From Halarcobacter anaerophilus (GTDB taxonomy: Bacteria; Campylobacterota; Campylobacteria; Campylobacterales; Arcobacteraceae): a DNA stretch of 64,000 nucleotides. The position numbers and the translations under genes were made by a program. Below the pieces are notes generated by a model. That model had not been told where the DNA came from. It saw only the letters and a list, made by a program, of their open reading frames with translations, and made no database searches. This document shows, one piece after another, positions 37,715 to 59,559 of this stretch (positions within the stretch are counted from its first letter, which is position 1; each line of letters begins with the position of its first letter). The DNA is taken from NCBI RefSeq assembly GCF_006459125.1, contig NZ_CP041070.1, positions 2,418,001-2,482,000 on the forward strand. Direction: 5' to 3'.

Positions 37715-38311
37715 ATGTCATACGTAGTTTATAGTATCAAAGGAGGTGTTGGCAAAACAACACTATCTGTACAAATATCACAGATGTTGGATTTCACATA
37801 TGTAACAAACGATTCTCACTCCTCTGCACACAATCTAATGCCCGAAGAGAAAGGATTTTTAGTTTCTAAAGAAGAGTATAATGAAATACCGTATGATGAA
37901 AATGTAGTTTATGATTTCGGTGGATTTAAAGATACAAGAATAAATGATATCGTAAAACAAGCACAAAAAATAATCATCCCAACTCTTACTTCAATAGTCG
38001 ATTTACAAGCTACCCTTGCAACATTAAAAGATGTTATTGAGATAAACAAAAATATTCTGATTGTAGTAAACAGAGCAAAAAACAACAATAAAGCAAATGA
38101 ATTAAAAGAGTACCTCAAAGAAGAGATAAGTAAAGAGTATAAAGATATAAATATTCCTATAATATTTGTAAGAGAATCTTCTGTTTTGGAAGACTCTTTG
38201 TTTGATTGTGAATATATAGAAACAAAAGCGGGAAATAACAGATTTAAAAGGCATATATATAGAAATGCCATTGAAGATATGCAAAACTTAAAAAAAGAGC
38301 TGGAACTTTAA
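37715..38311 (+). CDS. Small ParA-family ATPase
   Basis: The 198-residue protein starts MSYVVYSIKGGVGKTTLSVQ, the deviant Walker A of ParA/MinD proteins. It has VVYDFGGFKDTRI (Walker A' region, Asp) and a later IIIPTLTSIVDLQATL and IVVNRAKNN. It is the short type used by plasmids and integrated elements without a DNA-binding N-terminal domain. It is followed after one base by an 89-residue basic protein, the likely site-binding partner. It lies on the chromosome side of the left island junction. Role: DNA or protein positioning; partner and cargo unproven. Confidence 0.9.
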   Translation: MSYVVYSIKGGVGKTTLSVQISQMLDFTYVTNDSHSSAHNLMPEEKGFLVSKEEYNEIPYDENVVYDFGGFKDTRINDIVKQAQKIIIPTLTSIVDLQATLATLKDVIEINKNILIVVNRAKNNNKANELKEYLKEEISKEYKDINIPIIFVRESSVLEDSLFDCEYIETKAGNNRFKRHIYRNAIEDMQNLKKELEL

Positions 38312-38312
38312 A

Positions 38313-38582
38313 ATGAGTTATGCAGACAAACTAAAGAAAAACTCTTCAAAAATAAAAACCCATGAAAAAGTCTTAGATGAAAAAGCCATACCTAAAAAAA
38401 GAATGGGAAGACCAAAAAAAGCAAAAGAAGAAGTAAGAAATACGGCAATACCCGTAGCACTTAGTCAAAATGAAAAAGAGTGGATTGAAAAACAAGCTAA
38501 AAATATGTCAAAAGAGATAGGAGTAAAAATCACAACATCAGCATGGATGAGAATGACACTTTTAAAAAATATGCCAAACTAA
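38313..38582 (+). CDS. Small basic ParA partner protein, probably DNA-binding
   Basis: The 89-residue Lys-rich protein has PKKRMGRPKKAKEEVRN (an AT-hook-like GRPKK core) in the first half and a C-terminal region VALSQNEKEWIEKQAKNMSK that resembles a ribbon-helix-helix/CopG-like dimerisation unit. It starts one base after parA. By context it could be the ParB-like component that recognises the AT-rich repeats upstream. No homologue is named with confidence. Confidence 0.6.
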   Translation: MSYADKLKKNSSKIKTHEKVLDEKAIPKKRMGRPKKAKEEVRNTAIPVALSQNEKEWIEKQAKNMSKEIGVKITTSAWMRMTLLKNMPN

Positions 38583-38625: not shown

Positions 38626-38664
38626 TTAGTTTTTTGGAAGTAGTTTTACTGGAACGATTTGGAA
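38626..38664 (-). pseudogene. Displaced original 3' end of yciI (last 12 codons)
   Basis: On the minus strand these 39 bases read FQIVPVKLLPKN plus stop, identical in protein to the C-terminus of yciI at 59272-59310 but with five synonymous codon differences (for example CCA/CCT, GTA/GTT, CTA/TTA, CTT/TTG, AAC/AAT). A stop lies just upstream in frame. This is the part of yciI cut off when the island integrated. Confidence 0.9.
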
Positions 38665-38666
38665 CT
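38651..38666. repeat. Left attachment site of the island (core)
   Basis: GGAACGATTTGGAACT, identical to 59297-59312. It is the left boundary of the integrated element and lies in the displaced yciI 3' end. The distance between copies is 20,646 bases. Confidence 0.9.
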
Positions 38667-39635: not shown

Positions 39636-39837
39636 CAGATTTTTACAAATTGAAGAAGTAGCAAAAATTATGGGTATAGGAAAGACAAAAGCAAATGAAT
39701 TAGTAGATGATACTGATTTTATAAAACCAATTATAATTGATGGTTTTGCACGTAGGTTATTTTCTCACCTTGAACTACAAGAATGGATGAAAGCCCGAAG
39801 AGAGGATAGAAATAAAAATAAGGATACTTTGAAATGA
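39622..39837 (+). CDS. AlpA/MerR-like excisionase-type HTH protein
   Basis: The 71-residue protein reads RFLQIEEVAKIMGIGKTKAN, a HTH_17 (AlpA/excisionase) motif, followed by PIIIDGFARRLFSHLELQEW, where the Arg and the L-x-E-W helix are typical of the wing and final helix. Proteins of this class direct excision of integrated elements by bending attachment-site DNA. It starts within the previous gene and its stop overlaps the next gene start by 4 bases. Confidence 0.75.
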   Translation: MSANDRFLQIEEVAKIMGIGKTKANELVDDTDFIKPIIIDGFARRLFSHLELQEWMKARREDRNKNKDTLK

Positions 39838-40175
39838 ACAAAAAAAATAAAAAAATTGAATTAGCAGATTTTACAACAATTAAACATCACCCACGTGTAA
39901 AATATAATTTGTCTAACAACGATTACTGTATTGCAAATGCAATATACCACTTATCAAATAATCCTGAAAGCAAATTTAAGGGTTGGTATTATGGAAAAGT
40001 TGAAACACTTGGACAAATGTTTAATTTTGGGAGAAGTGCCACTTATGAATCAATTAAAAAGCTTATAGAAAAAAATCTAGTTGAGAAAGATCCTGAAAGT
40101 AATTTTTTAAAAACTACTAATATCTGGTGGGATGAATTTGTTAATTTTGAAATTGGACAGCTGTCCGGAAAGTGA
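39834..40175 (+). CDS. Winged-helix protein, possible replication initiator
   Basis: The 113-residue protein has a wHTH: NLSNNDYCIANAIYHLSNNP (first helices), KVETLGQMFNFGRSATYESI (HTH), KKLIEKNLVEKDPESNFLKT (wing). This resembles N-terminal domains of phage/plasmid replication organisers. It is followed immediately by TCCGGAAAG-type repeats (40164-40240), which could be iterons. The short length means it would lack a catalytic or DnaA-interacting C-terminal part. The function is inferred from fold and context only. Confidence 0.55.
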   Translation: MNKKNKKIELADFTTIKHHPRVKYNLSNNDYCIANAIYHLSNNPESKFKGWYYGKVETLGQMFNFGRSATYESIKKLIEKNLVEKDPESNFLKTTNIWWDEFVNFEIGQLSGK

Positions 40176-41840: not shown

Positions 41841-42149
41841 ATGAAAACAAAAATTTTAATATCACTACTTACTGCATATACTTTTACAAGTACAGCAACA
41901 GCAAATGGATGGCCAAGATTGGCTAAATCTGACTTTCCGATTAGTTGTAAAACAAAAACAATTTCTCTCAATTTTGAAGATGTCGAAAATCTAAAAAAGG
42001 TTAATAGTCAAATAGTGTATCTATCAGAAATATACTATTCAAAGAAATCAAATGAAGAAACTAAAAAAAGAGTCCTTGAACGTTTAAAGTTTTTTACTTT
42101 TTTAACATCTGATAAACATGGTGAATATTTCCAAGTTTGCGTCAAATAA
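41841..42149 (+). CDS. Small secreted protein with two cysteines
   Basis: The 102-residue protein has a Sec signal peptide (MKTKILISLLTAYTFTSTAT, cleavage likely after ATA-N). The mature part of about 80 residues has one Cys near each end (FPISCKTK and YFQVCVK), so a disulfide is possible. The family is not recognised. It lies 11 bases before the polytopic 239-residue gene, suggesting a periplasmic subunit of the same envelope module. Confidence 0.6.
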   Translation: MKTKILISLLTAYTFTSTATANGWPRLAKSDFPISCKTKTISLNFEDVENLKKVNSQIVYLSEIYYSKKSNEETKKRVLERLKFFTFLTSDKHGEYFQVCVK

Positions 42150-42159
42150 AGGAATTAAT

Positions 42160-42879
42160 ATGTATAAAAATAGAATACAATTTTTACCGTTTTTTTTAAA
42201 GAAAAACGAAGAGTTTAAGGAAAAAGATTTATCGAAGATTACATTTTTTAATTTCGATAAAATTTTTCAAAAAGACAAGAAGAAAAAAAGTATGTTTCAC
42301 CTACTAAGCTCTTCTTTTTGGCTAAGTTATATTTTTATAATGAGATATCTTCCAGCTATTTTCTTGTTATTGTTTACAAGTTATTTACAATTGTTTTGGA
42401 AGTTCACTGATGTTGATTATTTTGCAGGAGCAATAGCAATTATATTAGCTTTTTTATTTCTGCTTTTTTTCTCTAAATTGAATAAATCAAAACAAAATCT
42501 TGTTTTATTGATTGCTTTACTCTTATCAGTACCGGCATATCAACTTGATATTAGATATCATATTTTTGATATTTCAAGATTTTTTTCATCCCTTTTTATA
42601 AATTTTAGTTTTTTCTATTTATTATTTTGGTTAATTAAAGACATGATGATTGATACTAATTTTATGAGATACTATCGAATAATTGGCAATAAGAGTGGTT
42701 TTTTTATATTTAAACCTAGAACAATACCACTTAAGCCAGTGAAAAAGCTTTTTGTTCTGATTATATTTTTATTTTTTACAATACTTTCATATCAATATCT
42801 CATGATAGGCATTAAAGTTGTAGAAAATAAAAATCAAGCATTAATTATTCTAAAAGGCCTTAGTGATGGGGAAAAGTAA
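42160..42879 (+). CDS. Polytopic membrane protein of the island envelope module
   Basis: A 239-residue protein from the ATG at 42160, which has AAAGGA 6 bases upstream; an ATG at 42118 in frame would overlap the preceding gene. It has about five hydrophobic helices between 60 and 225 (for example LPAIFLLLFTSYLQLFWKF, IAIILAFLFLLFFSKLN, LVLLIALLLSVPAYQL, FVLIIFLFFTILSYQYLMIG), with short basic loops. The family is not recognised. It overlaps the 948-residue gene by 17 bases, so the two are translationally linked and probably form one complex. Confidence 0.6.
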   Translation: MYKNRIQFLPFFLKKNEEFKEKDLSKITFFNFDKIFQKDKKKKSMFHLLSSSFWLSYIFIMRYLPAIFLLLFTSYLQLFWKFTDVDYFAGAIAIILAFLFLLFFSKLNKSKQNLVLLIALLLSVPAYQLDIRYHIFDISRFFSSLFINFSFFYLLFWLIKDMMIDTNFMRYYRIIGNKSGFFIFKPRTIPLKPVKKLFVLIIFLFFTILSYQYLMIGIKVVENKNQALIILKGLSDGEK

Positions 42880-45709
42880 CATTATTTTAAGGTTTTTCAT
42901 TTTCTTTATAATGTTGTTCGCAAGTGCGAACGCTTATAATCCAGCAGAAAATGTAGAGGATAATTGGGAAAGTACTTATTCCACTGCATTGGTAGATCAG
43001 CGTGTAAATAACCCAAAAATTGATACTGAAGTTGAGGAATATGGTGCAAATGATGATAGTTATAGAAAAAGATGGGAAGATAATCGTGCTGGAAAGGTTA
43101 GGGAAAAAGAAACTTGGTTCGTAGATGTTGAGTTTTTAGGTTGTAGCGAACCCCGTGACTATGTATGTCCACCCCTAAAAGATATGTTTTTAAATCAAGG
43201 GTATAGAAGTAGAATAAATTATATTGATTTAAAAAATGGAAAGATTTCTTGTTCAGTTTTACCTCCTTTAGATGAGAATCAGTTTCTAACAACAAGAAGT
43301 GAAACATCTTTATATACAAATGTTTATGAAAATAAAGGTTGTATTGAGAAATATTCAACTTCATCAAATGTTGATACTAGTGAGGAAGTAGAAAATTTAA
43401 AAAAAGAGAATGAAGATTTTATAGAAAGTTTAAATCAGCAAGAATATAAATACACAGTTGATTATAAAAAAAGTGGAGATGAAGAATTTTTAGATTTTGC
43501 GGATATACTTGACAATTTAGTAACCTTTAATCCAAATATTTTTGATTTAGAAAGCACTTTATTAACTAGAGATTTAAAAACTATGCCAGGTTATACCACT
43601 TTGCCTAATGAAACTATAATCACAAAACTTGAGCAGCAATTGAAAAGTTTTACTGATATTATAAGTGGTAATGGTTTTAGCTCTGATAGATTTTTTGAAG
43701 AAGCTGATAAACAAGCTAAGATTAGAGACTTATCTAATGTTGCTGCAAATTCATCTTTTTTGATGTTACTTGATTATTATATTAAAGCAAATGATGCAAT
43801 GGTTTTATTAGCACAAAGTCTAGCATTTATATTTATTGTTTATAATGGTATTTTCACATGGATAATACCTACACTTACAAATAAAATGCAAAAAAAAGAT
43901 AGTGGAGAAAATTCACCACAAAGGGGCTTATTTGGTATTATTGCACTTATAATGCTTTTTGCAGGTGACATTGAAAGATTTGATATTCAGTATGAGAGTA
44001 AAACAGATGGAACAATAAAATCTGAGTTAGTATTACAACAAACAAATATTCAAGCAGCTATACAGTTTTTAGCAAGTGAGACTAATTACTGGGCTGATTA
44101 TTTTGCAGAAATAGGAATTAGATCTGCATTATCAGGACTAAGTGAGTCTACAGGCTTTTTAACTGGAAATCAAGTACAAGCTTTAGCTACAGAGAGAATG
44201 ATCTTAAAAAAAGAGAAAGAAGCTTTATCTAGAATTGAAACAGATATGTGCTATGCAAATTATGATGTTAAACTTATTAAAGATAAGTTAGCTGAGTATA
44301 GAACAAAAACATTAAATGAAAACACTGATACAGAAACTTCTATAAATGTTGCTGGATTTATTTCAGTTCCATTTTTTTCTACGTCTGTTTCTGAATTAAA
44401 ACAAAATCCATTTCCAAAAACAGAGCGTGAAGCTAATGCAATGCTATTTTATTCTAAGGATAAAAAAAAGCTAAATACAAGTCCATATAATCCTAATTAT
44501 GGAAGTATCGATAGTGGTGTGGTAAAATTCAATGAAAAAGATAAATTTAGGACGGGATATTATAGTCCTTTAAGTTTAAGTGGTTGTTATAATAACAATA
44601 AAAAAATGACTGCAAATGATCAAAGACTCAGAGAAATTGAAACTCAATTTGAACAATTCAGTAGTATTTCTCAAAAAAATGCAAAAGCAGAATATCTAAG
44701 AGTAATTAGTGAGATTCAATGGGGTTTATTTGCAAAGCAAGGATATATGGCAATGGCATATGTTCCAGTTACACAGATGCTAGTTGAAAATTTGGGTATT
44801 GTAGGAGATTTAAAATCTCAACAAGATGCTTTAGAAGAAGCAACAGGCTCGAGTGAGGGAGTTGCAAATGATATAATGGTTGGTACTATACAAGGGATTG
44901 CTGAAGATATTCCATTTCTTGCAATTATGGGTGGATATAATATCGCAAGGGTTATTCATCCAATAAAAGAGTTTTTAATTGATGGTTTCGTAAATGGAAT
45001 TGATACATTAGGGAATTTTTTAGGACCAATTGGAAAAGGCATGACTTTTGCTTTAACAAGCTTCCTTGATATAAAAAACGCTATTCCTTTTGGTGAAGAT
45101 GAAAACCAAATTGATATTTTTGATTTAAAAATAGCTGCATTTTTAATTAAAAATCTATTTACAACTTTAATTACTGTTACGCTAGTAACTGGCTCAGTGT
45201 TATTGTTTACATTACTTGTTATAGAAAAACTATTTGCTTTTATTTCAAGTATGTTCTTGCTTATTTATGCTTTTGCTAAAAATCAAGAAGAGAGAATGAG
45301 TACTGCATTTGCTAAAATTATTGCAGTTTATGCAAAGACTATTTTAATTGTCGTGTGTATCTTTTTAAGTATGTATAGTTTAAATCTAGTTAATACTTTG
45401 GAAATGTTGTTTATTGAGTCGTTTTTTAAATCTATGGATATGATTGAAAATGCTAGTTGGGATTATGCTTACAAAGAGTTAAATTTAAAATTAGCTTTTA
45501 ATCTGATAATATTATTTTTTAAGAAATATATCTTTTTTGGTGTTTCAAAATTTGCGTTTATGGTTTTAAAGCTTGTTTTAGTTGTACAAATGATTTGGAA
45601 AATGCCAGGATATATGTATGAATTAATTTATGAAAAGGTTCATAGTGTAAGTGATAGTGTAAGTGAAACACTACAAAATGCTAATGAAGCACAAACAATG
45701 AGAGTTTAA
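42863..45709 (+). CDS. 948-residue polytopic membrane protein, type IV secretion channel-like
   Basis: Signal peptide (IILRFFIFFIMLFASANA). A Cys-containing first ectodomain runs to about 300 (VEFLGCSEPRDYVCPPLKDM, KISCSVLPP). Two TM helices lie at about 308-330 and 353-367, then a second ectodomain to about 725 (DMCYANYD, LSGCYNNN). A C-terminal cluster has four to five TM helices (LFTTLITVTLVTGSVLLFTL, LFAFISSMFLLIYAFAK, YAKTILIVVCIFLSMYSL, FAFMVLKLVLVVQMIWKM). This topology, with a large periplasmic part between TM groups, resembles DotA/TraY, TraG-N or VirB6/TrbL proteins that form the inner-membrane channel of conjugation systems. No other secretion gene is on the island. Identity by topology only. 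Confidence 0.55.
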   Translation: MMGKSNIILRFFIFFIMLFASANAYNPAENVEDNWESTYSTALVDQRVNNPKIDTEVEEYGANDDSYRKRWEDNRAGKVREKETWFVDVEFLGCSEPRDYVCPPLKDMFLNQGYRSRINYIDLKNGKISCSVLPPLDENQFLTTRSETSLYTNVYENKGCIEKYSTSSNVDTSEEVENLKKENEDFIESLNQQEYKYTVDYKKSGDEEFLDFADILDNLVTFNPNIFDLESTLLTRDLKTMPGYTTLPNETIITKLEQQLKSFTDIISGNGFSSDRFFEEADKQAKIRDLSNVAANSSFLMLLDYYIKANDAMVLLAQSLAFIFIVYNGIFTWIIPTLTNKMQKKDSGENSPQRGLFGIIALIMLFAGDIERFDIQYESKTDGTIKSELVLQQTNIQAAIQFLASETNYWADYFAEIGIRSALSGLSESTGFLTGNQVQALATERMILKKEKEALSRIETDMCYANYDVKLIKDKLAEYRTKTLNENTDTETSINVAGFISVPFFSTSVSELKQNPFPKTEREANAMLFYSKDKKKLNTSPYNPNYGSIDSGVVKFNEKDKFRTGYYSPLSLSGCYNNNKKMTANDQRLREIETQFEQFSSISQKNAKAEYLRVISEIQWGLFAKQGYMAMAYVPVTQMLVENLGIVGDLKSQQDALEEATGSSEGVANDIMVGTIQGIAEDIPFLAIMGGYNIARVIHPIKEFLIDGFVNGIDTLGNFLGPIGKGMTFALTSFLDIKNAIPFGEDENQIDIFDLKIAAFLIKNLFTTLITVTLVTGSVLLFTLLVIEKLFAFISSMFLLIYAFAKNQEERMSTAFAKIIAVYAKTILIVVCIFLSMYSLNLVNTLEMLFIESFFKSMDMIENASWDYAYKELNLKLAFNLIILFFKKYIFFGVSKFAFMVLKLVLVVQMIWKMPGYMYELIYEKVHSVSDSVSETLQNANEAQTMRV
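42915..42932. repeat. TGTTCGC-N4-GCGAACG palindrome (copy 1)
   Basis: This lies inside the signal-peptide codons of the 948-residue gene. The same arm and flank (TGTTCGCA, TGCGAACGCTT) recur on the opposite strand at 48898-48917, and a close variant TGTTCAC-N4-GTGAACA lies at 48818-48837. Because the palindrome is inside codons, chance is possible. Confidence 0.4.
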
Positions 45710-47160: not shown

Positions 47161-47391
47161 CTATAAAAGAATCCCTTCATTTCCACTTAGCTCATTTGTG
47201 TAAACTTGTCTTAAATCATCTTCAGTAACTTCTAATATTTCTCCTGTAGCAGGGTCAATTTTTTCTAGTTTAAAACCTTGTACATATAAAGATTCATACC
47301 CCTCAACATTTATTATCGAACTGCATTCTTTAGGTTGATTATAAAATTTTTTGTATTTGATAAAGCCCTCTTCAAAACTATCTTTACTCAT
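47161..47391 (-). CDS. Small hypothetical protein, 76 residues
   Basis: Not recognised. It is acidic and soluble. It contains IDPATGEILEVTEDDLRQVY, a T-G-E-I beta-hairpin pattern seen in many small phage proteins. It abuts the metallophosphoesterase gene and overlaps the HTH gene by one base (TAATG), so all are translated together. Confidence 0.55.
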   Translation of the reverse strand: MSKDSFEEGFIKYKKFYNQPKECSSIINVEGYESLYVQGFKLEKIDPATGEILEVTEDDLRQVYTNELSGNEGILL

Positions 47392-48140
47392 TAATTATAT
47401 CCCATTTCATTATATTTATTGTAAAACCTTTCTCTTGATCTTAACCTTAAATCTTTTAGACTTATAATAAGATAACTAGCACTCTTTTCACATATTTTAA
47501 ATAATTCACCATCTATTAATCTATAAATATGAGCTTTATTATCTATATCTGAATTATTATGGATAATAAGTGAATAATTTTTGATAAATGCCTTTTCTTT
47601 AACTAATAAGCTTAATTTTTCAATATTCATTTCAATATCTTTATAATTATTATCAAAAGAATATATATTTTTTTCAAGTATTTTTTGTGAATCACCAATT
47701 CCTCTATCTTTAATATATGCACATTTTAAATATTTGGGTTTATATCTTTCAATTGTACCATCGATAAGTTCAATTGTTATTGGCTCTTCTTTTTTATTGT
47801 CCTTTTTAACATCAATCTTTTCTTTACGTACAACTACTTCATTTGAAGAAATTTCATTTGGCATTTCTATATTTTTATCACTATAATTTTTCTTTGCTAA
47901 TACATAATCACTTTCTACTTGATTTAGTCTTTTTTCATTTCTTTGAATCCAGTTGTAAAGATTTGAATATGAAGTTTCATATTGATATTCTTCCTTTAAA
48001 AATTCCAATATTTTTAAGATTGGTATTTTTTCTAATCGCAGATAAAAAATATCATCTTTATATTTCTCTAAATTTGATACTCTTTTTTTTTGATTTTTAT
48101 ATTTTAAGCTAAACTCTTCTGCTTTTTTTGAAAATTTCAT
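47391..48140 (-). CDS. HTH protein, probable operon regulator or relaxosome-like DNA-binding protein
   Basis: The 249-residue basic protein has a helix-turn-helix near residues 25-65: FYLRLEKIPILKILEFLKEE then TSYSNLYNWIQRNEKRL, a pattern (start of one helix, then S-x-S-x-L-Y-x-W-I-x-R) like TraK-type and MobC-type accessory proteins and some phage regulators. The rest is charged, ending LISLKDLRLRSRERFYNKYN. It starts 49 bases from an array of six ATCTTAT-type repeats phased on the DNA helix, so autoregulation or origin binding is likely. Leads a five-gene leftward operon. Confidence 0.6.
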   Translation of the reverse strand: MKFSKKAEEFSLKYKNQKKRVSNLEKYKDDIFYLRLEKIPILKILEFLKEEYQYETSYSNLYNWIQRNEKRLNQVESDYVLAKKNYSDKNIEMPNEISSNEVVVRKEKIDVKKDNKKEEPITIELIDGTIERYKPKYLKCAYIKDRGIGDSQKILEKNIYSFDNNYKDIEMNIEKLSLLVKEKAFIKNYSLIIHNNSDIDNKAHIYRLIDGELFKICEKSASYLIISLKDLRLRSRERFYNKYNEMGYN

Positions 48141-48188
48141 ATTATAGCCTCTATATCATACAAATTATATTTAATTATATTATTAAAT

Positions 48189-48269
48189 ATCTTATAATTA
48201 TCTTATTGGTTTATGTAATTATCTCATTTATTTTTATATTTATCTATATTTATCTTATAATTATCTTAT
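48189..48269. promoter_or_regulatory. Six helically phased ATCTTAT repeats
   Basis: Units (ATCTTAT, with one ATCTCAT and one ATCTATA) start at 48189, 48200, 48221, 48242, 48252 and 48263: spacings 11, 21, 21, 10 and 11, all near whole multiples of the 10.5-bp helical turn. They lie just upstream of the HTH gene, consistent with a cooperative operator or origin/oriT binding array. Confidence 0.7.
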
Positions 48270-48358
48270 GATTAAGTATTTGATATTAATAATATTTAAA
48301 AAAATCTATTATAATTTTTTCATCTAAAAGCCTATAGTTTTAAATCAACATTTTGAAA

Positions 48359-48467
48359 GCGAGTCAGCCATTTGTAATACAATTTATGCCGAAGGCAAAA
48401 TATGTTTACAAACCGAATTAAAAAATATTCATTTCATTCAATTTTATTAATATCTTGGCAGACTCGC
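48359..48467. repeat. 109-bp element closed by an imperfect 12-bp inverted repeat
   Basis: GCGAGTCAGCCA (48359-48370) and TGGCAGACTCGC (48456-48467) pair with one mismatch over 12 positions, enclosing small hairpins (TGCC-GAA-GGCA, TTGTAATACAA). The arms are GC-rich in an AT-rich gap. It may be a folded RNA, an origin of transfer or a replication-origin structure. Confidence 0.5.
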
Positions 48468-48492
48468 CTCATTTCACGCACTTCATTTGTTC

Positions 48493-48594
48493 CATATCGG
48501 ATGACATTCCAATCATTCACATTCGTTCATATCTTTTCATTATTATGTGATATAATTTTAGTAACAATAAGTTAAAGTAATTGTTTCCGATATG
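48493..48594. repeat. 102-bp element closed by a perfect 9-bp inverted repeat
   Basis: CATATCGGA (48493-48501) and TCCGATATG (48586-48594) enclose 84 bases, almost the same spacing as the 85 bases of the element 25 bases to its left. A TATAAT box lies within. Confidence 0.4.
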
Positions 48595-48600
48595 TGAACA

Positions 48601-48816
48601 CCCTCTTTTTTTGTTCTGAATTTATATTCCTCTATTACTTTTTAAATGATTACATTTTTTATCAAACTTAATAAATATATTAAAAAAATAATACATTAAA
48701 AACTTATATATGTTAAATCTTATTCAAATTGATTTAGAACTGAACCACTTCAAAGAAATCTAAATATGTTGCTGATGAAGCAAGTATTCCTGCCGTAGAG
48801 TTTGATTAATTAATAC
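48601..48816. other. Gap with a short coding relic
   Basis: Mostly structureless A/T sequence. Bases of about 48742-48810 (plus strand) read as an open frame without start codon ending SKYVADEASIPAVEFD and stop. The codon quality is higher than in surrounding DNA, so it could be the tail of a lost gene; no family is identified. Confidence 0.25.
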
Positions 48817-48838
48817 TATGTTCACAATAGTGAACATA
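48817..48838. repeat. TATGTTCAC-AATA-GTGAACATA palindrome
   Basis: A perfect 9-bp inverted repeat with a 4-base centre, without T-run on either side. It is related in sequence to the TGTTCGC-N4-GCGAACG palindromes at 42915 and 48898. Confidence 0.6.
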
Positions 48839-48897
48839 ACTAAGCTCTTTTATTTTTAATACTAAGACCAAAATGTATAAAAGGTAGAATTTAAATG

Positions 48898-48919
48898 AAG
48901 CGTTCGCATCTGCGAACAC
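48898..48919. repeat. GTTCGCA-TC-TGCGAAC palindrome (copy 2)
   Basis: A perfect 7-bp arm palindrome (48902-48917) with AG and CT extending it beyond a mismatch. The plus strand continues CCTTTTATAAT, which could also act as a terminator. The minus-strand reading TGTTCGCANNTGCGAACGCTT matches 42915-42935 except for the two centre bases. Confidence 0.6.
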
Positions 48920-48970
48920 TCCTTTTATAATTTAATTGAATAATCAATATAGTTGCCATAAAAATTATCT

Positions 48971-50749
48971 TTATAAAAAACTTGAATCTACTATTTCATT
49001 ATTCACTATTAGTACATTTGTTTTAGTACTATTAATCTTTTGTAATAATATATTTGACTTATCTAACTCTTCTTTATTTCTAAAGCTAAATAAACAATTT
49101 TCAAATTTTGTATTCTTAAAAGTTACATTAATAAAAATCACATCTTCAATTTTACAATTTTTAAAGGTACTATCTGCAAAGGTACTATCTACGAAAGTAA
49201 CCCTATCAAAAATTTCTTCTTTTAAATTCAACTTTAACCTATTAATTCTTTCATATCTCTCTTTATCAGAAAAATCTTTATTTTTTAGAAATTTCTTATA
49301 AAATTCTTGATTTTCTAATTCTTTAATTTTTTCGAAATACTTCTTATCATCTAATCCAAATGTATTTGAATTAAATCTTGTAGAGACAACAGTTCCTCCA
49401 AAAATAAAAAAATTTTCATATTCATTATTATTAAACTCACTATAAATTATATTTGTTGAATAAAAATTCACTAATCCAAAATTGATGTATTGGAATTTGC
49501 TATTAATTATATTAGTTTTATTGAAATTACTATTCAGAACTTTAGAATCATCTCTTCTTTTTCCTAACATATAATAGTCAGAATATTCACCAATTATATT
49601 TATTTGATCTAAAAAAGAATCATTGAAATTTACAAAATTAAAATAGGTATTATAAAACCTATTATTAATTAAAATAGCTTTATTAAATTCCACGCTATTG
49701 AAGTCTGTATTGGAAAATACTGAATTTCCCAATTTAATTCGACTTAATACTATTCTTCTTATGTCTCTATTATTTACATATAATCCTTTTGCATCTTTTG
49801 CATAATCTCCATCATGAATAAGAGGATTCATCGGTGTTAAATCAATATCATTAATATATTTAAGAGGAAATAGTTTTTGAGAATATGTATATTTTGAATC
49901 TTTTCCACTAGTTCCTTTCAAGTTCTGTATTTCTATAGGGCTAAGAATCTCAAAAGCTGCATAAATTACAAAGAAAACCATCAAAAAGTATTGAGGAATA
50001 AAAGTTAATGCATTTGAATAAATACGAAAAGATAAAATAATATTAACTATTCCGATAATAAGTATAAAAAACAATGGTACTATTGGATATGAAGAAATAA
50101 AACATACTTGAATTAATAAAATAATTGGTAAAAACATAAGAATTTGAAAAAAAGTAAGAAGTCTGAAACTTAAATTATTTGAATTACGTTTACTATATAA
50201 AGAAATATGATTAAAACTGAATGGATTCAGATATAGTAATTTTTCCTGAATTTTTTTAGACTTAAAAGAATATTTAGTGAATGAATATACCTTTATATAA
50301 TGTCCCAATAAACTTTCAACAACAAAAATATGTGCAAACACAACCAATATTGAAGTATATAAAGTGAATTCATATGTAGTTAATGAAATATCAAAAGTAA
50401 AAAATTTAAACCCTGTATTAACAAAAATATCTTTTGCAGAAATACTTGCAATAGTTACTATACAGAACAATAAAAAAGTTATATAAGTATTTAACAAAAT
50501 CTGACTTTTATTAGATGAATTGTTTAGAGAGTTTAAAAGAAGCTCATGTTCTATATCAGAGAGGGAAGTAATTTTTATATATTTACGTCTAAAAAACCGG
50601 AGTATTTTCCGTGAATACTTCAATGGCAATAATTTTATAATACCTCTAACATATCCCTTATTAGTAAGAAAATAATTTCGCCAAAACTTATTAAGAATAC
50701 CTATAAAAAAGAGAATCAAGGACCATAATTTTTTTAATTTATTTATCAT
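48971..50749 (-). CDS. Membrane pentapeptide-repeat protein
   Basis: A 592-residue protein. The N-terminal half has about six TM helices between 85 and 275 (for example TYITFLLFCIVTIASISAKD, TLYTSILVVFAHIFVVES, PLFFILIIGIVNIILSF, YFLMVFFVIYAAFEIL). From about 330 the protein carries pentapeptide-type repeats with F or I at every fifth position (SNTDFNSVEFNKAILINNRF, FNKTNIINSKFQYINF, FVDSTFADSTFKNCKIEDVI, FKNTKFENCLFSF), forming a right-handed beta-helix, interrupted by a helical insert (about 470-515). The function is unknown. It lies downstream of the AAA/subtilase defence pair and two small genes; a membrane-acting effector is one possibility. Confidence 0.75.
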   Translation of the reverse strand: MINKLKKLWSLILFFIGILNKFWRNYFLTNKGYVRGIIKLLPLKYSRKILRFFRRKYIKITSLSDIEHELLLNSLNNSSNKSQILLNTYITFLLFCIVTIASISAKDIFVNTGFKFFTFDISLTTYEFTLYTSILVVFAHIFVVESLLGHYIKVYSFTKYSFKSKKIQEKLLYLNPFSFNHISLYSKRNSNNLSFRLLTFFQILMFLPIILLIQVCFISSYPIVPLFFILIIGIVNIILSFRIYSNALTFIPQYFLMVFFVIYAAFEILSPIEIQNLKGTSGKDSKYTYSQKLFPLKYINDIDLTPMNPLIHDGDYAKDAKGLYVNNRDIRRIVLSRIKLGNSVFSNTDFNSVEFNKAILINNRFYNTYFNFVNFNDSFLDQINIIGEYSDYYMLGKRRDDSKVLNSNFNKTNIINSKFQYINFGLVNFYSTNIIYSEFNNNEYENFFIFGGTVVSTRFNSNTFGLDDKKYFEKIKELENQEFYKKFLKNKDFSDKERYERINRLKLNLKEEIFDRVTFVDSTFADSTFKNCKIEDVIFINVTFKNTKFENCLFSFRNKEELDKSNILLQKINSTKTNVLIVNNEIVDSSFL

Positions 50750-51584: not shown

Positions 51585-53801
51585 TTATTCAAATTCAATT
51601 TCTTCTTCCGCAATATTATAAATATCAACTCTTGTATCAACATCAATTCTATTAACTAGCCATCCCCTAAGCATGGCATTCCTAATAAATTCTTCTATTC
51701 TATTAATTCCATTAATTTCTTTAAGAGTTATTACAATACCAAACTTTAGCCCCTCTCCAAATTTTTCTTCAAGTCTTTCTTTTGTTTTAAGACTTATTCC
51801 CCATAAAGCATTTTCATATGCTTTCTTATCACGATTTCTTCCAGTTGAAACTTCTCTTAGATGTTTTACATTATCCCATTTTCTAAAAAATTTACGTGCA
51901 TCCTCTTCCCATGTATAATGATCATAAGCATGGGTTTGATAATTATTATCTATTGTTTTAATAGTTCTACCATTTAATCTCCCAAAAGAAATATCTAATT
52001 CTGTATTAGTATAGTCAACACCTTGATTTCTTGAGCATGCAGGGAAATAACATAATGTAGCTTTTGCAATAAAAGGGTGTTTCTCATTGGATACAGGAAT
52101 AGGAATATTGTAATTATAAGTATTATATAGTTCTGATGTTCCTTGAATTATAAATTGTATTTCATCATTTGCACAATATACAATATCTTCTATTCTTTTC
52201 GGAACAATACCATGACCAACTAACGCTGGATCATTTTGTTCCACACTCCATCCTGTTGCAGAATTTATAAGTAATGCTTTTGCAATATTTCTATTTAAAC
52301 CTAAAACATTTACTAAATAAGCTAACTTTCTTGAAATCCAAGGTGCTGCAAAGGAAGTTCCTTTAACAAGTGCTTCTCCTGTTGGAGTACAAACCTTCAT
52401 AGGATTTCTAGAATCACCTCCATAATAACTAATATCAGGTTTTATAAAAAAAGATAATACAGGACCCTTTCGACTATAAGAAGATGGGTTTCCATTAGAA
52501 TCTACTGAATTAACGACAATTGAGTTAATTGAATCAGCAGGAGCACCTATTGGCCTAGTTTCAATTTCTCCTGAAGATAGGTTTGTTCCTGCGATTACAA
52601 ATATAACATCATTTTCGTATTGAATTTTGTCTAAAATTGCAGCTTCAGGAGAGATAAAATTAGAGTGTACACTAAGTTTTGATCCTAAAGATAAATTCCA
52701 AACTTTTATATCTCTATTTTGAGCTACTATTTCACTAATATTTCGTAATATTGTAAATGAATTAAAACTATTACCACTAGCTACAGCAAAGTGTTTTACT
52801 TTAAAATTACCACAACCATCATCTAAATGAGGATTAAAAGTTGGACCATCTACAATTATAGAAGAAACTGCCGTACCATGTTCGAAATCTCTTCCTGTTG
52901 TAGGAATATCAGTATGTAACATATTTGTATATTCTACCCATTCTGAAAAATATACACTATCATCAAATAAGGTATCAATTACGCCTATAGTAGGTTCATT
53001 TTCCGGTGGTCTTATAGTTAATACTTCATCATCAAAAAACTCAAAATCATCTCTTGTTATTTCAGATAGATTAGTTACAGCCATTGAAATTAAAAATGGA
53101 GCTCTTGTTTTTAAAATTTCTAATTCATCAGGTTGTAATAATATAGTTGTTTCATCCATTATACGATTAGATAAAATATTAATACCTAACCTATTTAATA
53201 GTTCTGTAGTATTTACATTAGTTTTATATATAGTAATAATGGCATCATTAATAGTTTCATCTATCGAATCTAGTACATCAAATCTATCAACAAAGTAAGC
53301 ATCTATAATTACTAAAAGAAAATTAGTTTTAGCAATTGTAGAATGAGAATATGAAATTACACCACTATTTATCTGTTTAATAGTTTCATGATCTATTTCA
53401 CCATTAAACTGTGAGTTTAATATATTTATACAGTTTTTCAAACGCGAAATAGATTCATTTAAAATTCCAAGTGACACATAATGTGTTATTATGTGCTTTG
53501 GAGAAGTATCAGGTGAAAACTTTGCACCTACTATTGTACTATTAGGACTGATTGAACTATTTCCTAAAAGTGCTCGAAGTCTATTACTCTTAGCAGCAAT
53601 TTTATTATAATGCGCAGTAATTAAAGCTCCTGGTAATAAATCTTGATTTCGCCAATAGCTTTGCAATTCATTTAAATTCACTAATAAATTTTCTAGTCTT
53701 GATACTTCTACAGATTTACCTGCAGGTAAATTTGGTGCTCCTGGTCTATTTGGACTTGTAGCTTGTTCAAATCTTCCTTTTAATTGTAATAAATTATTCA
53801 A
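51585..53801 (-). CDS. ietS: Cytosolic subtilisin-like (S8) serine protease, IetS-like
   Basis: A 738-residue protein with the full S8 triad: Asp276 in IGVIDTLFD, His308 in FEHGTAVSS and Ser483 in VKGTSFAAP, with oxyanion Asn407 in VIAGTNLSS. There is no signal peptide and the first 260 residues form a helical extension, so it acts inside the cell. The C-terminal part (about 540-738) is beta-rich. It starts 5 bases after the AAA ATPase gene. A cytosolic subtilase paired with an AAA ATPase is the architecture of IetAS, first described as a plasmid stability/toxin-antitoxin pair and later as an anti-phage system, in which the protease is the toxic effector. Confidence 0.85.
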   Translation of the reverse strand: MNNLLQLKGRFEQATSPNRPGAPNLPAGKSVEVSRLENLLVNLNELQSYWRNQDLLPGALITAHYNKIAAKSNRLRALLGNSSISPNSTIVGAKFSPDTSPKHIITHYVSLGILNESISRLKNCINILNSQFNGEIDHETIKQINSGVISYSHSTIAKTNFLLVIIDAYFVDRFDVLDSIDETINDAIITIYKTNVNTTELLNRLGINILSNRIMDETTILLQPDELEILKTRAPFLISMAVTNLSEITRDDFEFFDDEVLTIRPPENEPTIGVIDTLFDDSVYFSEWVEYTNMLHTDIPTTGRDFEHGTAVSSIIVDGPTFNPHLDDGCGNFKVKHFAVASGNSFNSFTILRNISEIVAQNRDIKVWNLSLGSKLSVHSNFISPEAAILDKIQYENDVIFVIAGTNLSSGEIETRPIGAPADSINSIVVNSVDSNGNPSSYSRKGPVLSFFIKPDISYYGGDSRNPMKVCTPTGEALVKGTSFAAPWISRKLAYLVNVLGLNRNIAKALLINSATGWSVEQNDPALVGHGIVPKRIEDIVYCANDEIQFIIQGTSELYNTYNYNIPIPVSNEKHPFIAKATLCYFPACSRNQGVDYTNTELDISFGRLNGRTIKTIDNNYQTHAYDHYTWEEDARKFFRKWDNVKHLREVSTGRNRDKKAYENALWGISLKTKERLEEKFGEGLKFGIVITLKEINGINRIEEFIRNAMLRGWLVNRIDVDTRVDIYNIAEEEIEFE

Positions 53802-53806
53802 TAGAC

Positions 53807-54844
53807 TTACTCCCTTAATTCTCTAGATACTTGACTTTTTGAGATACCTGTTAAAATTTCTATTTCTCTAACTGTAAATCCTTTAGCATTCAAATATTTT
53901 GGATTCATATTTTCTTCATTCTTATGTATACTTATATACAATTTTTTTAAATAATCATACTCATTACTTGAGTCACTAAAAGCTATAGAAGTCTTAATAA
54001 AATTTTTTAACTCACCAGGATATGGAATCACATCCAAAGAATTAAGTATCTTTTTAAATAACCTGACATTTTTTCCAGCAAATTTAAATTTTAATAGCAA
54101 TTCATTTAAAATAGATTCTCCTACTTCAATTAAATCTTCTTTTGTATAATTACTAAAGTCGATTATTGCATCAAATCTTCTGAGTAATGCTTTATCAAAT
54201 GATTTATATAAATTTGTAGTTGCAATTAAAATAATATTATCATCTAGCGTATCTAATCCTTTTAGAACTGAAGATGTTGCTCTTCCCATTTCTCTCAAAT
54301 CATTAGAATTAATTCTATCAATTGCAATAGCATCTATTTCATCAAATAATACAATCACTTTATTGGGATTAGATACAGAACAAATTTCATTAAAAAGAGA
54401 TGCTATATTTTTAGAAGTTTGACCTAACTTACTGTCAATTACAGAATCGAAATCTACTATAAATAATTCCCTTTCAAGTATTCTTGCAATTTGTTTTGCT
54501 GACTCAGTTTTTCCAGTGCCAGGAGGTCCTTCAAATAGAAATTTATTTACACCCGCATTATGACCTATTGCATTTATAATGCCAACTATGTTATCTTTAA
54601 TTGAATTTGGCAATGGCAATGGATTACTTGATGTTTCAACTCGTTTAACAAATTTTTTTTCATTTGAATCAATTTGAGGAGAAAATGTATTTGCATCTGA
54701 TAATAAAGCCATAATATATTCTGAAAGTTGATAATCATCATTTTTATCAAAATATTTTGCAATTTCATATGCTTCATTTCTAAATGCTGAATCATTCTTT
54801 TCAGCATAATATTTTATTAAGTTTAATATATTCTTTTTTTTCAT
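53807..54844 (-). CDS. ietA: AAA ATPase with C-terminal HTH, IetA-like
   Basis: A 345-residue protein from the ATG at 54842-54844, which has AGAGGAT 5 bases upstream; the longer reading to 54901 would run through the promoter. Walker A is GPPGTGKT (106-113), Walker B is VLFDEIDA (165-172), sensor 1 is ATTN (208-211) and the arginine finger region is LRRFD (221-225): a classical AAA fold of the type that remodels proteins. The last 28 residues (GFTVREIEILTGISKSQVSR) form a helix-turn-helix, not expected in an AAA protein. The promoter overlaps two TTGGGACA repeats, suggesting autoregulation. It probably restrains or triggers the downstream subtilase. Confidence 0.85.
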   Translation of the reverse strand: MKKKNILNLIKYYAEKNDSAFRNEAYEIAKYFDKNDDYQLSEYIMALLSDANTFSPQIDSNEKKFVKRVETSSNPLPLPNSIKDNIVGIINAIGHNAGVNKFLFEGPPGTGKTESAKQIARILERELFIVDFDSVIDSKLGQTSKNIASLFNEICSVSNPNKVIVLFDEIDAIAIDRINSNDLREMGRATSSVLKGLDTLDDNIILIATTNLYKSFDKALLRRFDAIIDFSNYTKEDLIEVGESILNELLLKFKFAGKNVRLFKKILNSLDVIPYPGELKNFIKTSIAFSDSSNEYDYLKKLYISIHKNEENMNPKYLNAKGFTVREIEILTGISKSQVSRELRE

Positions 54845-54860
54845 TTTATCCTCTTTTCGT

Positions 54861-54900
54861 ATTATAACCAACTTGGGACATAAAGTCAATAGTTGGGACA
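54861..54900 (-). promoter_or_regulatory. Promoter and twin operator repeats of the ietAS-like pair
   Basis: On the minus strand, TTGACT (54884-54889) and TATAAT (54861-54866) are separated by exactly 17 bases. Two direct repeats of TTGGGACA on the plus strand (54873-54880 and 54893-54900), 20 bases apart (two helical turns), overlap and flank the -35 box. They would block RNA polymerase when bound. Confidence 0.85.
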
Positions 54901-55240
54901 ATATTTTTAAAACTTTCTTTAAAAGTTAATTCTTTTTGTTTTCTAACAAGTATTAACTGAAACTTTTATTATTTATAAATTTTACCTTGATTTATTGCTC
55001 CTTATTTCATATAAAATTTTAAAAATAAACTTCATTAACTTCATCAATTACATTTTAATTAAAAATTTGCTAAAATTTTTTTGGTTATTTAGATTTCCAG
55101 ACCGCTCTAAACATAATGTATGGCTAAAATCTATTTTTAAAACCTAAGCCCTTGTTATTAATATAGTAATTCGGAGCAAAACTAGAGCATTGTAACTTTT
55201 ATTATTAAAGATGAATTACTTATATAATAAGGAAATACTT
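54901..55240. other. Gap between divergent genes
   Basis: About 340 bases between the ietAS-like promoter and the 220-residue gene. No tRNA, repeat or clear ORF was seen. It presumably contains the promoter of the rightward gene; no good -35/-10 pair stands out. Confidence 0.4.
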
Positions 55241-57857: not shown

Positions 57858-59117
57858 CTAAAGCCTATCCAACCAATCCGCATACCATTGGATTAATTCT
57901 TTTTTTTCTTCAAAATATTTATATTTTGATTCTCTGTTATAAGCTGCTTTTACTTTATTCTTTTCTTTATGAGCTAAACATGATTCAATAATATCTGAAT
58001 GAAAGGCATGCTCTTTATATAATTCATGTGCAATAGTAGAAAACATACTTCTAAAACCATGGAAAGTGTGTTTATTTTGATAACCTAACTTATTTAATGT
58101 ATCAGACAGGGTAGCACCTGAAACTCCTCTATCGTTCTTATATGGAGAAGGAAATACAAATCTACTTCTATGTCTTGAGAAAGGTTCTATTTGTTTTAAA
58201 ATAGCAATTGCCTGTTTTGGTAGAGGACAAACAAAGTCTACTTTCATTTTCATTTTTTCTTTTGGTATTTCCCAAACACCTTTTTCCAGATTGATATCAT
58301 CCCAACACATAAGCCTTATATTTTCACTTCTTACAAACACATAAGGTATAAGTTTAAATATAAATATAGTACTTATATCACTCTTTAACTTCTCACCAAT
58401 TGAGTTAATATCTAGTAAAAGTTGTTTTATATCTTTAGGTTCTGTAATTGCTGCTAAATGAGTATCTTTTTGATTAGGAATTAAAACTGATTTTTTATCA
58501 ATATTTGCAACTATATTATGCTCAACATATTCTTTTGTAACAGCGAACATGTATATTTTATTAATTAAGGATAATAATCTATGAGCAGTTTCTATAACTC
58601 CTCTACTTTGTAGTTTTTCCAATGCACTAATTATATCAACTCTTTTTATATCTTTAATTGCAATATTGCCTAACCAATCAGTTATATTTTTTAATATTCT
58701 TTTGTTTTGTGTTATAGTCGCAGTACTTGAGCTTTTTTTTCTAAGGTCAATCCATTCATCAATTACATTTTGTAAAGTTAGTGATTCTGAAGCTTTTTTA
58801 ATTCTTTTTTCTGATATTGGATTTATATTTTTTGATAATAGTTCTCTTGCTGCTTCTCTTTTTTCTCTAGCTTCTTTTAATCCTATTTCAGGATAAATAC
58901 CAAAAGACATACTAAGATTTTTTCCACCATACCTAAAATCAAAACGCCACATTTTAGAATTAGGTTTTAATAGTAGATATAATCCTTTTCCATCGGCAAG
59001 CTTATTATTTAGTTTTGCATTAGGGTCTTTTAATTTTAATTCTTTGTATTCATCTTTTGATGTGTATTTTGCATTTTTAATTTCTGTAGTTGTAAGAGGC
59101 TTTGATATTTTTGGCAT
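57858..59117 (-). CDS. P4-type tyrosine integrase
   Basis: The 419-residue protein has an N-terminal DUF4102 arm-binding domain (DGKGLYLLLKPNSKMWRFDF, MSFGIYPEIGLKEAREKREA), a SAM-like core-binding domain (about 115-200) and a catalytic domain. The catalytic residues visible are Arg263 (YVFVRSENIRL), His353/Arg356 (HTFHGFRSMF), His383 (CLAHKEKN) and the nucleophile Tyr393 (KAAYNRESKYK). It inserts and excises the island at the yciI site, 180 bases from the attachment core. It is upstream of the coupled 207-residue gene on the same strand. No frameshift or missing catalytic residue, so it is probably active. Confidence 0.95.
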   Translation of the reverse strand: MPKISKPLTTTEIKNAKYTSKDEYKELKLKDPNAKLNNKLADGKGLYLLLKPNSKMWRFDFRYGGKNLSMSFGIYPEIGLKEAREKREAARELLSKNINPISEKRIKKASESLTLQNVIDEWIDLRKKSSSTATITQNKRILKNITDWLGNIAIKDIKRVDIISALEKLQSRGVIETAHRLLSLINKIYMFAVTKEYVEHNIVANIDKKSVLIPNQKDTHLAAITEPKDIKQLLLDINSIGEKLKSDISTIFIFKLIPYVFVRSENIRLMCWDDINLEKGVWEIPKEKMKMKVDFVCPLPKQAIAILKQIEPFSRHRSRFVFPSPYKNDRGVSGATLSDTLNKLGYQNKHTFHGFRSMFSTIAHELYKEHAFHSDIIESCLAHKEKNKVKAAYNRESKYKYFEEKKELIQWYADWLDRL

Positions 59118-59271: not shown

Positions 59272-59559
59272 TTAATTTTTTGGCAATAATTTAACAGGAA
59301 CGATTTGGAACTCGTCCATATTCCAAACACCGTTTACCACATAGGGTTCATTTTCAAGCCAATTGTTTATTTCATCATCATTTTCAAAATCTACAAAAAG
59401 TGTTGAACCTACCATTTGATCTTCTTCCGTAAGAGCACCTGCATCAATTATTTTGCCTTCTGCCATTAATTTTCTAGTACCTTCAACATGGGCATCTCTT
59501 ACTTCAATTCTTTTTTCTAAAGCACCTTCATTGTCATAAGCTATAACAAGATATTGCAT
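59272..59559 (-). CDS. yciI: YciI family protein, island integration target
   Basis: The 95-residue protein starts MQYLVIAYDNEGALEKRIEV and contains the family segments HVEGTRKLMAEGKIIDAGAL and VGSTLFVDFENDDEINNWL, ferredoxin-like YciI fold with a conserved His and Asp. The function in cells is unknown (some relatives are muconolactone-isomerase-like). The last 12 codons are derived from the island and encode the same residues as the displaced original end at 38626-38664, so the protein is unchanged. It follows a conserved membrane gene and rpoC on the same strand. Confidence 0.95.
   Translation of the reverse strand: MQYLVIAYDNEGALEKRIEVRDAHVEGTRKLMAEGKIIDAGALTEEDQMVGSTLFVDFENDDEINNWLENEPYVVNGVWNMDEFQIVPVKLLPKN
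59297..59312. repeat. Right attachment site of the island (core)
   Basis: GGAACGATTTGGAACT, identical to 38651-38666. It lies inside yciI and is followed by the island-supplied synonymous last codons. Confidence 0.9.

Follow-up and report, generated by a model that had tools for sequence, protein, structure and literature searches.

A 64,000-nucleotide stretch of the Halarcobacter anaerophilus chromosome (NZ_CP041070.1, positions 2,418,001 to 2,482,000; hereafter the window, 28.6% G+C, from a 3.02-Mb genome on a single contig) carries an integrated island with a three-gene envelope module, whose largest product is a protein of 948 residues. The results described below indicate that this protein is likely a divergent DotA/TraY-type (VirB6-class) inner-membrane channel subunit, as judged from sequence profiles and a predicted model. 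By analogy with SGI1 and its TraG, we consider it probable (about 0.6) that the island inserts this DotA-type subunit of its own into the mating channel of a helper with a type IVB-like type IV secretion system (T4SS). The subunit exchange and its benefit, together with the helper and the island's mobilization, are what we infer as the leading explanation. The module consists of the following genes.

41841-42149, + strand: open reading frame (ORF, from the ORF list) for a 102-aa protein with a signal-like N-terminus, as seen by eye, and two Cys residues.
42118-42879 (start possibly 42160), + strand: five-transmembrane (TM) partner of 253 aa by hydropathy, directly upstream of the channel gene.
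42863-45709 (start possibly 42866), + strand: predicted DotA/TraY-like channel protein of 948 aa (profile, fold, family).

All three genes, which a first-pass annotation had placed here, were present as ORFs on the + strand. As that annotation had described, the 253-aa protein has five TM segments by hydropathy, and the large 948-aa protein is polytopic with two ectodomains. The latter has eight hydropathy segments: one N-terminal and signal-like, two starting at residues 313 and 355, and five from residue 765 onward. The cysteines of the 948-aa protein are at positions 94, 102, 130, 160, 463, 575 and 832. In the alignment of the 42 members of its family, C463 and C575 were invariant, and conservation reached at least 90% for C102 and C130, indicating that the Cys-containing ectodomains are a conserved trait. 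Translation of the 948-aa protein may instead begin at ATG 42866 (947 aa), given that residue 2 was invariant, yet residue 1 was aligned as well in one 42-row alignment. For the 253-aa gene, ATG 42160 is a possible start, since the N-terminus from there resembles those of its relatives by eye; whether this gene overlaps the one for the 102-aa protein is therefore uncertain. Family libraries gave no usable match for the three genes, and sequence searches of solved structures gave none.

The 948-aa protein belongs to an unnamed family in Campylobacterota. The collection comprised 43 ORFs of 600 aa or more, one of which was a cut copy of another, leaving 42 distinct long open genes. When the protein alone was used as the query, matches were found in 10 of the 104 genomes of the host's taxonomic family, its own genome included; a profile of 11 relatives gave matches in 50 of the 397 genomes of the phylum, and one of 41 relatives in 22 of the 104 genomes of the host's family, three of them (G013, G015 and G042) only by short or broken copies. 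Note that the number of candidates scored in each genome is small in these searches and the counts may therefore be low. A degenerate-pattern scan of the genome contigs gave no match. The closest relatives were at loci L075 (49%) and L057 (48%). Genome G006 has two channel genes of equal score (C1:1923705 and 1995211), and broken channel copies with stops were seen at G042:C1:32062-35518. In a tree of the 42 channels, the window protein was grouped with those of G379 and G403, both of another taxonomic family, with support of 100/100, which suggests, from the sequences, transfer of the channel gene between taxonomic families. Well-supported branches force at least five changes between rows labelled T4SS (11 rows) and orphan (31 rows) in this tree, whose root is arbitrary, whose long branches meet and whose orphan label was checked for part of the rows.

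The likeness to DotA/TraY was found first in profile comparisons. The family profile matched a set of nine TraY/DotA proteins with E 8.9e-6 and a probability of 83; the aligned part, 126 columns in the C-terminal TM region, scored 57.8. Among the controls, the two reversed ones scored 19.3 and 20.0, while 60 column shuffles did not exceed 20.8 and 60 block shuffles did not exceed 34.4; thus none of the 120 shuffles reached the observed score. Two subsets of the channel family scored 50.4 and 51.6, and two subsets of the TraY set 39.9 and 49.3. Against 92 single proteins, comprising transfer-region proteins of ColIb-P9 and F and chromosomal proteins of the window, TraY ranked first, with a score of 29.3 over 128 columns and a weak probability of 3.9, the next protein reaching 23.6 over 45 columns.

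A model of the 948-aa protein built from 41 sequences had a mean predicted local distance difference test (pLDDT) score of 67.7 and a predicted template modelling (pTM) score of 0.60. Compared by VIA-align with 410 chains, it matched best the Legionella DotA-IcmX protochannel (9ngy_FP1) with Z 14.4, the next row having 6.7, although the tool warns that helical models may reach Z of such size by chance. The alignment comprised 354 residues with a root-mean-square deviation of 7.3 and spanned residues 208-923 of the window protein. Passages of two papers on Dot/Icm describe a pentameric protochannel of DotA and IcmX that spans the envelope once opened, and treat DotA as the equivalent of VirB6 (PMC12857230, PMC12981334). 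The first-pass annotation had likened the topology to DotA/TraY, TraG-N or VirB6 subunits; the TraY profile match and the DotA structure match both support secretion-channel identity, and the best solved structure proved to be a channel of this class rather than an unrelated fold. With the DotA/TraY family (TIGR04346; Dot/Icm, IncI1) the window protein thus shares its large size, its polytopic inner-membrane topology, the ectodomains and a TM bundle at the C-terminus, in addition to the profile and fold matches and to relatives in clusters with a TraU-like ATPase and a TrbC-like coupling protein.

At loci L063, L064, L066, L068 and L069, the channel gene stands amid genes for exported proteins, for lipoprotein-like proteins and for a transglycosylase, and in most of them a coupling protein and a second ATPase are nearby. 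For the coupling protein of these clusters, IncI TrbC was a better match (E 4.9e-23 over 389 columns) than F TraD, and the second ATPase matched IncI TraU with E 1.5e-6 over 365 columns, indicating that the clusters containing channel relatives are IVB-like. TrbC and TraU are the counterparts of DotL and DotO. When the cluster families were compared with IncI and F proteins, the coupling protein, the ATPase and the transglycosylase gave the better matches. The lipoprotein matched TraH/DotD weakly (probability 21), and family F4 matched TraI/DotC at rank 2 (probability 4.6) behind F TraT; the 4-TM family F8 and the remaining families matched no IncI or F protein. In a plasmid collection, 13 records matched the channel of L047 and 14 the cluster ATPase, 13 being common to both; all were typed non-mobilizable, and in the one record viewed nearly all cluster genes were annotated as 'hypothetical protein'. 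The plasmid clusters of Campylobacter and Helicobacter (e.g. NZ_CP012550.1) have a channel of the same family as the island and, unlike the island with its channel gene and perhaps one partner, also have the ATPase, the coupling protein and lipoproteins. Two T4SS-like plasmids carry very large SNF2-related genes (L014:23578-31794 and L084:18602-25735) and no identified relaxase; these genes might have a DNA-processing function.

The gene directly upstream of the channel gene encodes at least two TM segments in 14 of 32 loci (L058 included), and small exported or single-TM genes stand before the channel and partner pair in some relatives. In several elements, the gene in the place of the five-TM partner shares one family with T4SS-cluster genes, and the five-TM protein may, on this sequence relationship, be part of a T4SS as well. 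The partner genes of L016-L019, L021 and L073 did not match cluster family F8, and BLAST of the 102-aa protein against the loci compared gave no relative at E 1e-4.

By analogy with SGI1, GISul2 and an IncP island, the module most likely remodels the channel of an IVB-like helper. The 948-aa subunit would be made with its five-TM partner and perhaps the small exported protein, on an island that would depend on a helper's type IVB-like conjugation machine. When the helper is present, the island's subunit would enter its apparatus, giving hybrid or replaced channel rings, and the altered channel would favour island transfer or escape entry exclusion by the helper, in the manner of TraG of SGI1. 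In the abstract of PMC5389848, the TraG of SGI1 is described as able to replace the helper's subunit, as needed for optimal transfer and as disabling entry exclusion. SGI1 and its relatives (TraG, TraH, TraN, IncC type) are, like the window element, integrated islands without relaxase or coupling protein that carry a VirB6-class mating-pore subunit, as described in the abstract of PMC5389848 and in passages of PMC5704250. They differ in having been experimentally tested and in belonging to Gammaproteobacteria and an F-type T4SS, whereas the window island is IVB-like, from Campylobacterota and known from sequence; no equivalent of TraH or TraN was identified on it. GISul2 and the IncP island (TrbJ, TrbK, TrbL), putative mobilizable islands according to part of PMC5704250, also have a small module in which a VirB6-class gene is accompanied by one or two small envelope genes. 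They are IncP-related, and no relation to TrbJ or TrbK is evident for the 102-aa and five-TM proteins of the window.

The island itself, an integrated element with attachment (att) repeats and an integrase, is well supported. Its features outside the module are as follows.

38651-38666, + strand: left attachment repeat, exact over 16 bp within an imperfect repeat of ~44 bp (repeat scan, flank alignment).
39834-40175, + strand: 113-aa protein like part of replication initiators (PHROG 428, E 2.7e-4).
47391-48140, - strand: 249-aa protein of a small DNA-binding-like family (17 members) whose genes, on several related elements, are close to those for relaxases.
48141-48970, no strand: mostly noncoding interval containing two TGGCNGACTCGC sites in inverted orientation (48357, -; 48454, +), a candidate origin of transfer (oriT) or control region.
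51585-54901, - strand: IetS-like subtilase and IetA-like AAA ATPase, an anti-phage pair carried as cargo (PADLOC, 4.3e-65 and 2.3e-43).
57858-59117, - strand: tyrosine integrase of 419 aa (Pfam Phage_integrase, 8.1e-14; Arm-DNA-bind_3, 1.6e-20).
59297-59312, + strand: right attachment repeat, within the 3' end of a YciI-like gene at 59272-59559 (repeat scan, flank alignment).

The 16-bp repeat had two exact matches in the window, and none of 100 shuffles had two or more. The longer imperfect repeat around it is identical with the YciI-like gene's 3' end; the integrase adjoins this gene. On the basis of these repeats and the adjoining integrase, the island was delimited to ~38651-59312 (21 kb). 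At L024, an integrase 69% identical to that of the window lies beside the same YciI-like gene; a second copy of the repeat was searched for there and not found. Since the repeat bounds the island at 38651, the ParA and RHH-like genes at 37715-38582 are outside it. A ParA gene (83-86% identical) with its small neighbour (74%) was also seen near such islands at L017:2333-3194 and L072:1608-2481; occurring in differing chromosomal contexts, and outside the repeats here, the pair may be a mobile unit of its own. The 113-aa protein was 88% identical in two related islands, L016 and L018 (BLAST). The 249-aa protein, which had no Pfam match over the cut-off, is a possible relaxosome accessory. A conserved noncoding block, a possible oriT, was seen upstream of the small DNA-binding-like gene at L016:3795-4152, L018:16987-17315 and L021:3925-4270. 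The island also encodes a 592-aa protein with pentapeptide repeats (48971-50749, - strand).

We then considered the relatives that stand apart from full clusters, using 22 loci on stretches of at most 20 kb or in the window (window, L015-L021, L023, L024, L057-L062 and L070-L075). A MobF relaxase was found in 5 of them, a coupling protein in 10, the small DNA-binding-like protein in 16 and ParA in 15, the window's ParA lying outside its island. Large proteins that are only possible relaxases were seen at L058 and L075 (below the Pfam cut-off) and at L017 (with LPD7). L057, the 48% relative, is on an element with an integrase-like gene, a MobF relaxase and a coupling protein. Relatives thus lie in conjugation-type clusters and on small integrated elements, not only in unrelated chromosomal loci.

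At E 1e-3, the cluster ATPase profile matched 35 of the 397 phylum genomes. The match was strong (below 1e-30) in 16, of which 14 belonged to the 50 genomes that also have the channel family. Of those 50, 36 had no strong ATPase match and 34 none at E 1e-3. In the host's taxonomic family, 7 of 104 genomes matched the ATPase at E 1e-3, only G043 strongly, and the six others were outside the 22 with the channel family. Consequently, 21 of the 22 channel-bearing genomes had no cluster ATPase match, although detection limits and incomplete assemblies could inflate such counts of lone channels. In the exception, G043, contigs carry a coupling protein and a TraI-like helicase in addition to cluster genes.

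Several results weigh against a DotA-type subunit acting in a helper's channel. Unlike the DotA/TraY family, the window protein is missed by curated models, none of the 42 members matching Pfam or NCBIfam models (DotA/TraY TIGR04346, TraG, VirB6) at E 0.1; its identity to TraY in the aligned part is 12%, and it stands on an island without a machine. With only the 11 first relatives in the profile, the TraY comparison gave a probability of 12 and E 0.0024. The fold match comes from a single model at the pLDDT given above, for which Foldseek alone had no significant match at E 0.001. An earlier AlphaFold model (11 rows, pLDDT 54) gave no sound match, DotA being absent from its list. Because this weaker model missed DotA and helical models may score by chance, we regard the fold result as strong only jointly with the profile result. 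The five-TM protein matched cluster family F8 at E 0.012 only, and the 948-aa protein had one match, at E 0.2, in the plasmid collection. A phmmer search with 17 queries against six frames of 38001-59400 gave no relaxase, coupling protein or ATPase at E 1, and no window ORF joined any of the 16 gene families built from a T4SS-like cluster, in agreement with the earlier statement that no other conjugation gene is on the island. The inverted-site pattern occurred 7 times in the whole window against 4.13 expected, which is not significant, and the host genome had no match to the cluster ATPase or to VirB4; no helper was found there. Of the earlier proposal of a mobilizable island modifying a helper's channel, the channel part is supported, while mobilizability, with no relaxase or proven oriT on the island and no helper found in the genome, and replacement of a helper's subunit stay putative.

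Among other explanations, the one that survives best, while unlikely, is that the island is the remnant of a larger conjugative or relaxase-bearing element in which the channel gene is left over with no present role. Its close relatives have both the relaxase and the coupling protein that it lacks, and copies elsewhere are broken (G042, with stops) or partial (short matches in G013 and G015). The 42 distinct long open relatives argue against decay, as does the open gene with an open multi-TM partner in several lineages; a channel without the cluster ATPase is moreover the usual state in the host's family.

Similarly unlikely is interference, in which the lone subunit and its five-TM partner would form an anti-plasmid or exclusion device that poisons IVB-like conjugative elements or keeps them out, whether these are incoming or already resident. 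TraY and TraG are donor-side partners of exclusion proteins. For TraG of SGI1, a link to exclusion is described in part of PMC5389848. The subunit stands without a machine and shares its island with the IetAS-like anti-phage pair, but 10 of the 22 loci lacking a full cluster have a coupling-protein gene on the same stretch, which speaks for transfer and against blockade.

It is quite improbable that the protein is of VirB6 or TraG-N type rather than DotA type and serves an ordinary VirB-type or F-type helper. Several related elements do carry TrwB/TraD-like coupling proteins and MobF relaxases, and DotA itself is regarded as a VirB6 counterpart in a passage of PMC12857230. However, in the single-sequence test that gave TraY a score of 29.3, F TraG reached 19.1, a comparison in which TraG was represented by this one sequence, profile-level comparison having covered TraY/DotA, and the clusters with relatives have IVB-like ATPases and coupling proteins. 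A stand-alone pore or phage-adsorption block with no tie to conjugation is very improbable, since the lone envelope genes beside anti-phage cargo and a match of the 948-aa protein to PADLOC DrmC that is no better than chance (E 6e-4, 17 bits, 42 residues) are outweighed by a family context of T4SS clusters and mobilization modules and by the lack of a PHROG match of that protein.

The preferred explanation, an own DotA-type subunit in a helper's channel, has a wider form, to which we give somewhat less than even odds: Campylobacterota would have an unrecognised type IVB-like conjugation system, parasitised across the phylum by small islands whose own DotA-type protochannel evades exclusion or redirects the channel to their own DNA. 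Dot/Icm is described as absent from Campylobacter in a passage of a 2023 review (PMC9856085), and no description of the 948-aa channel family was found among the matches listed in open-licence PMC papers, as judged from titles and the starts of abstracts. The kind of element, a relaxase-less island with its own mating-pore subunit, is known; its putative IVB-like form in Campylobacterota would be new. The results also bring to attention plasmids that are typed non-mobilizable and yet carry T4SS-like clusters. If the wider form is true, the 'bring your own channel subunit' strategy of SGI1, GISul2 and the IncP island would extend to IVB-like T4SSs and to a whole phylum, and the strategy of SGI1 would have evolved independently in another T4SS class.

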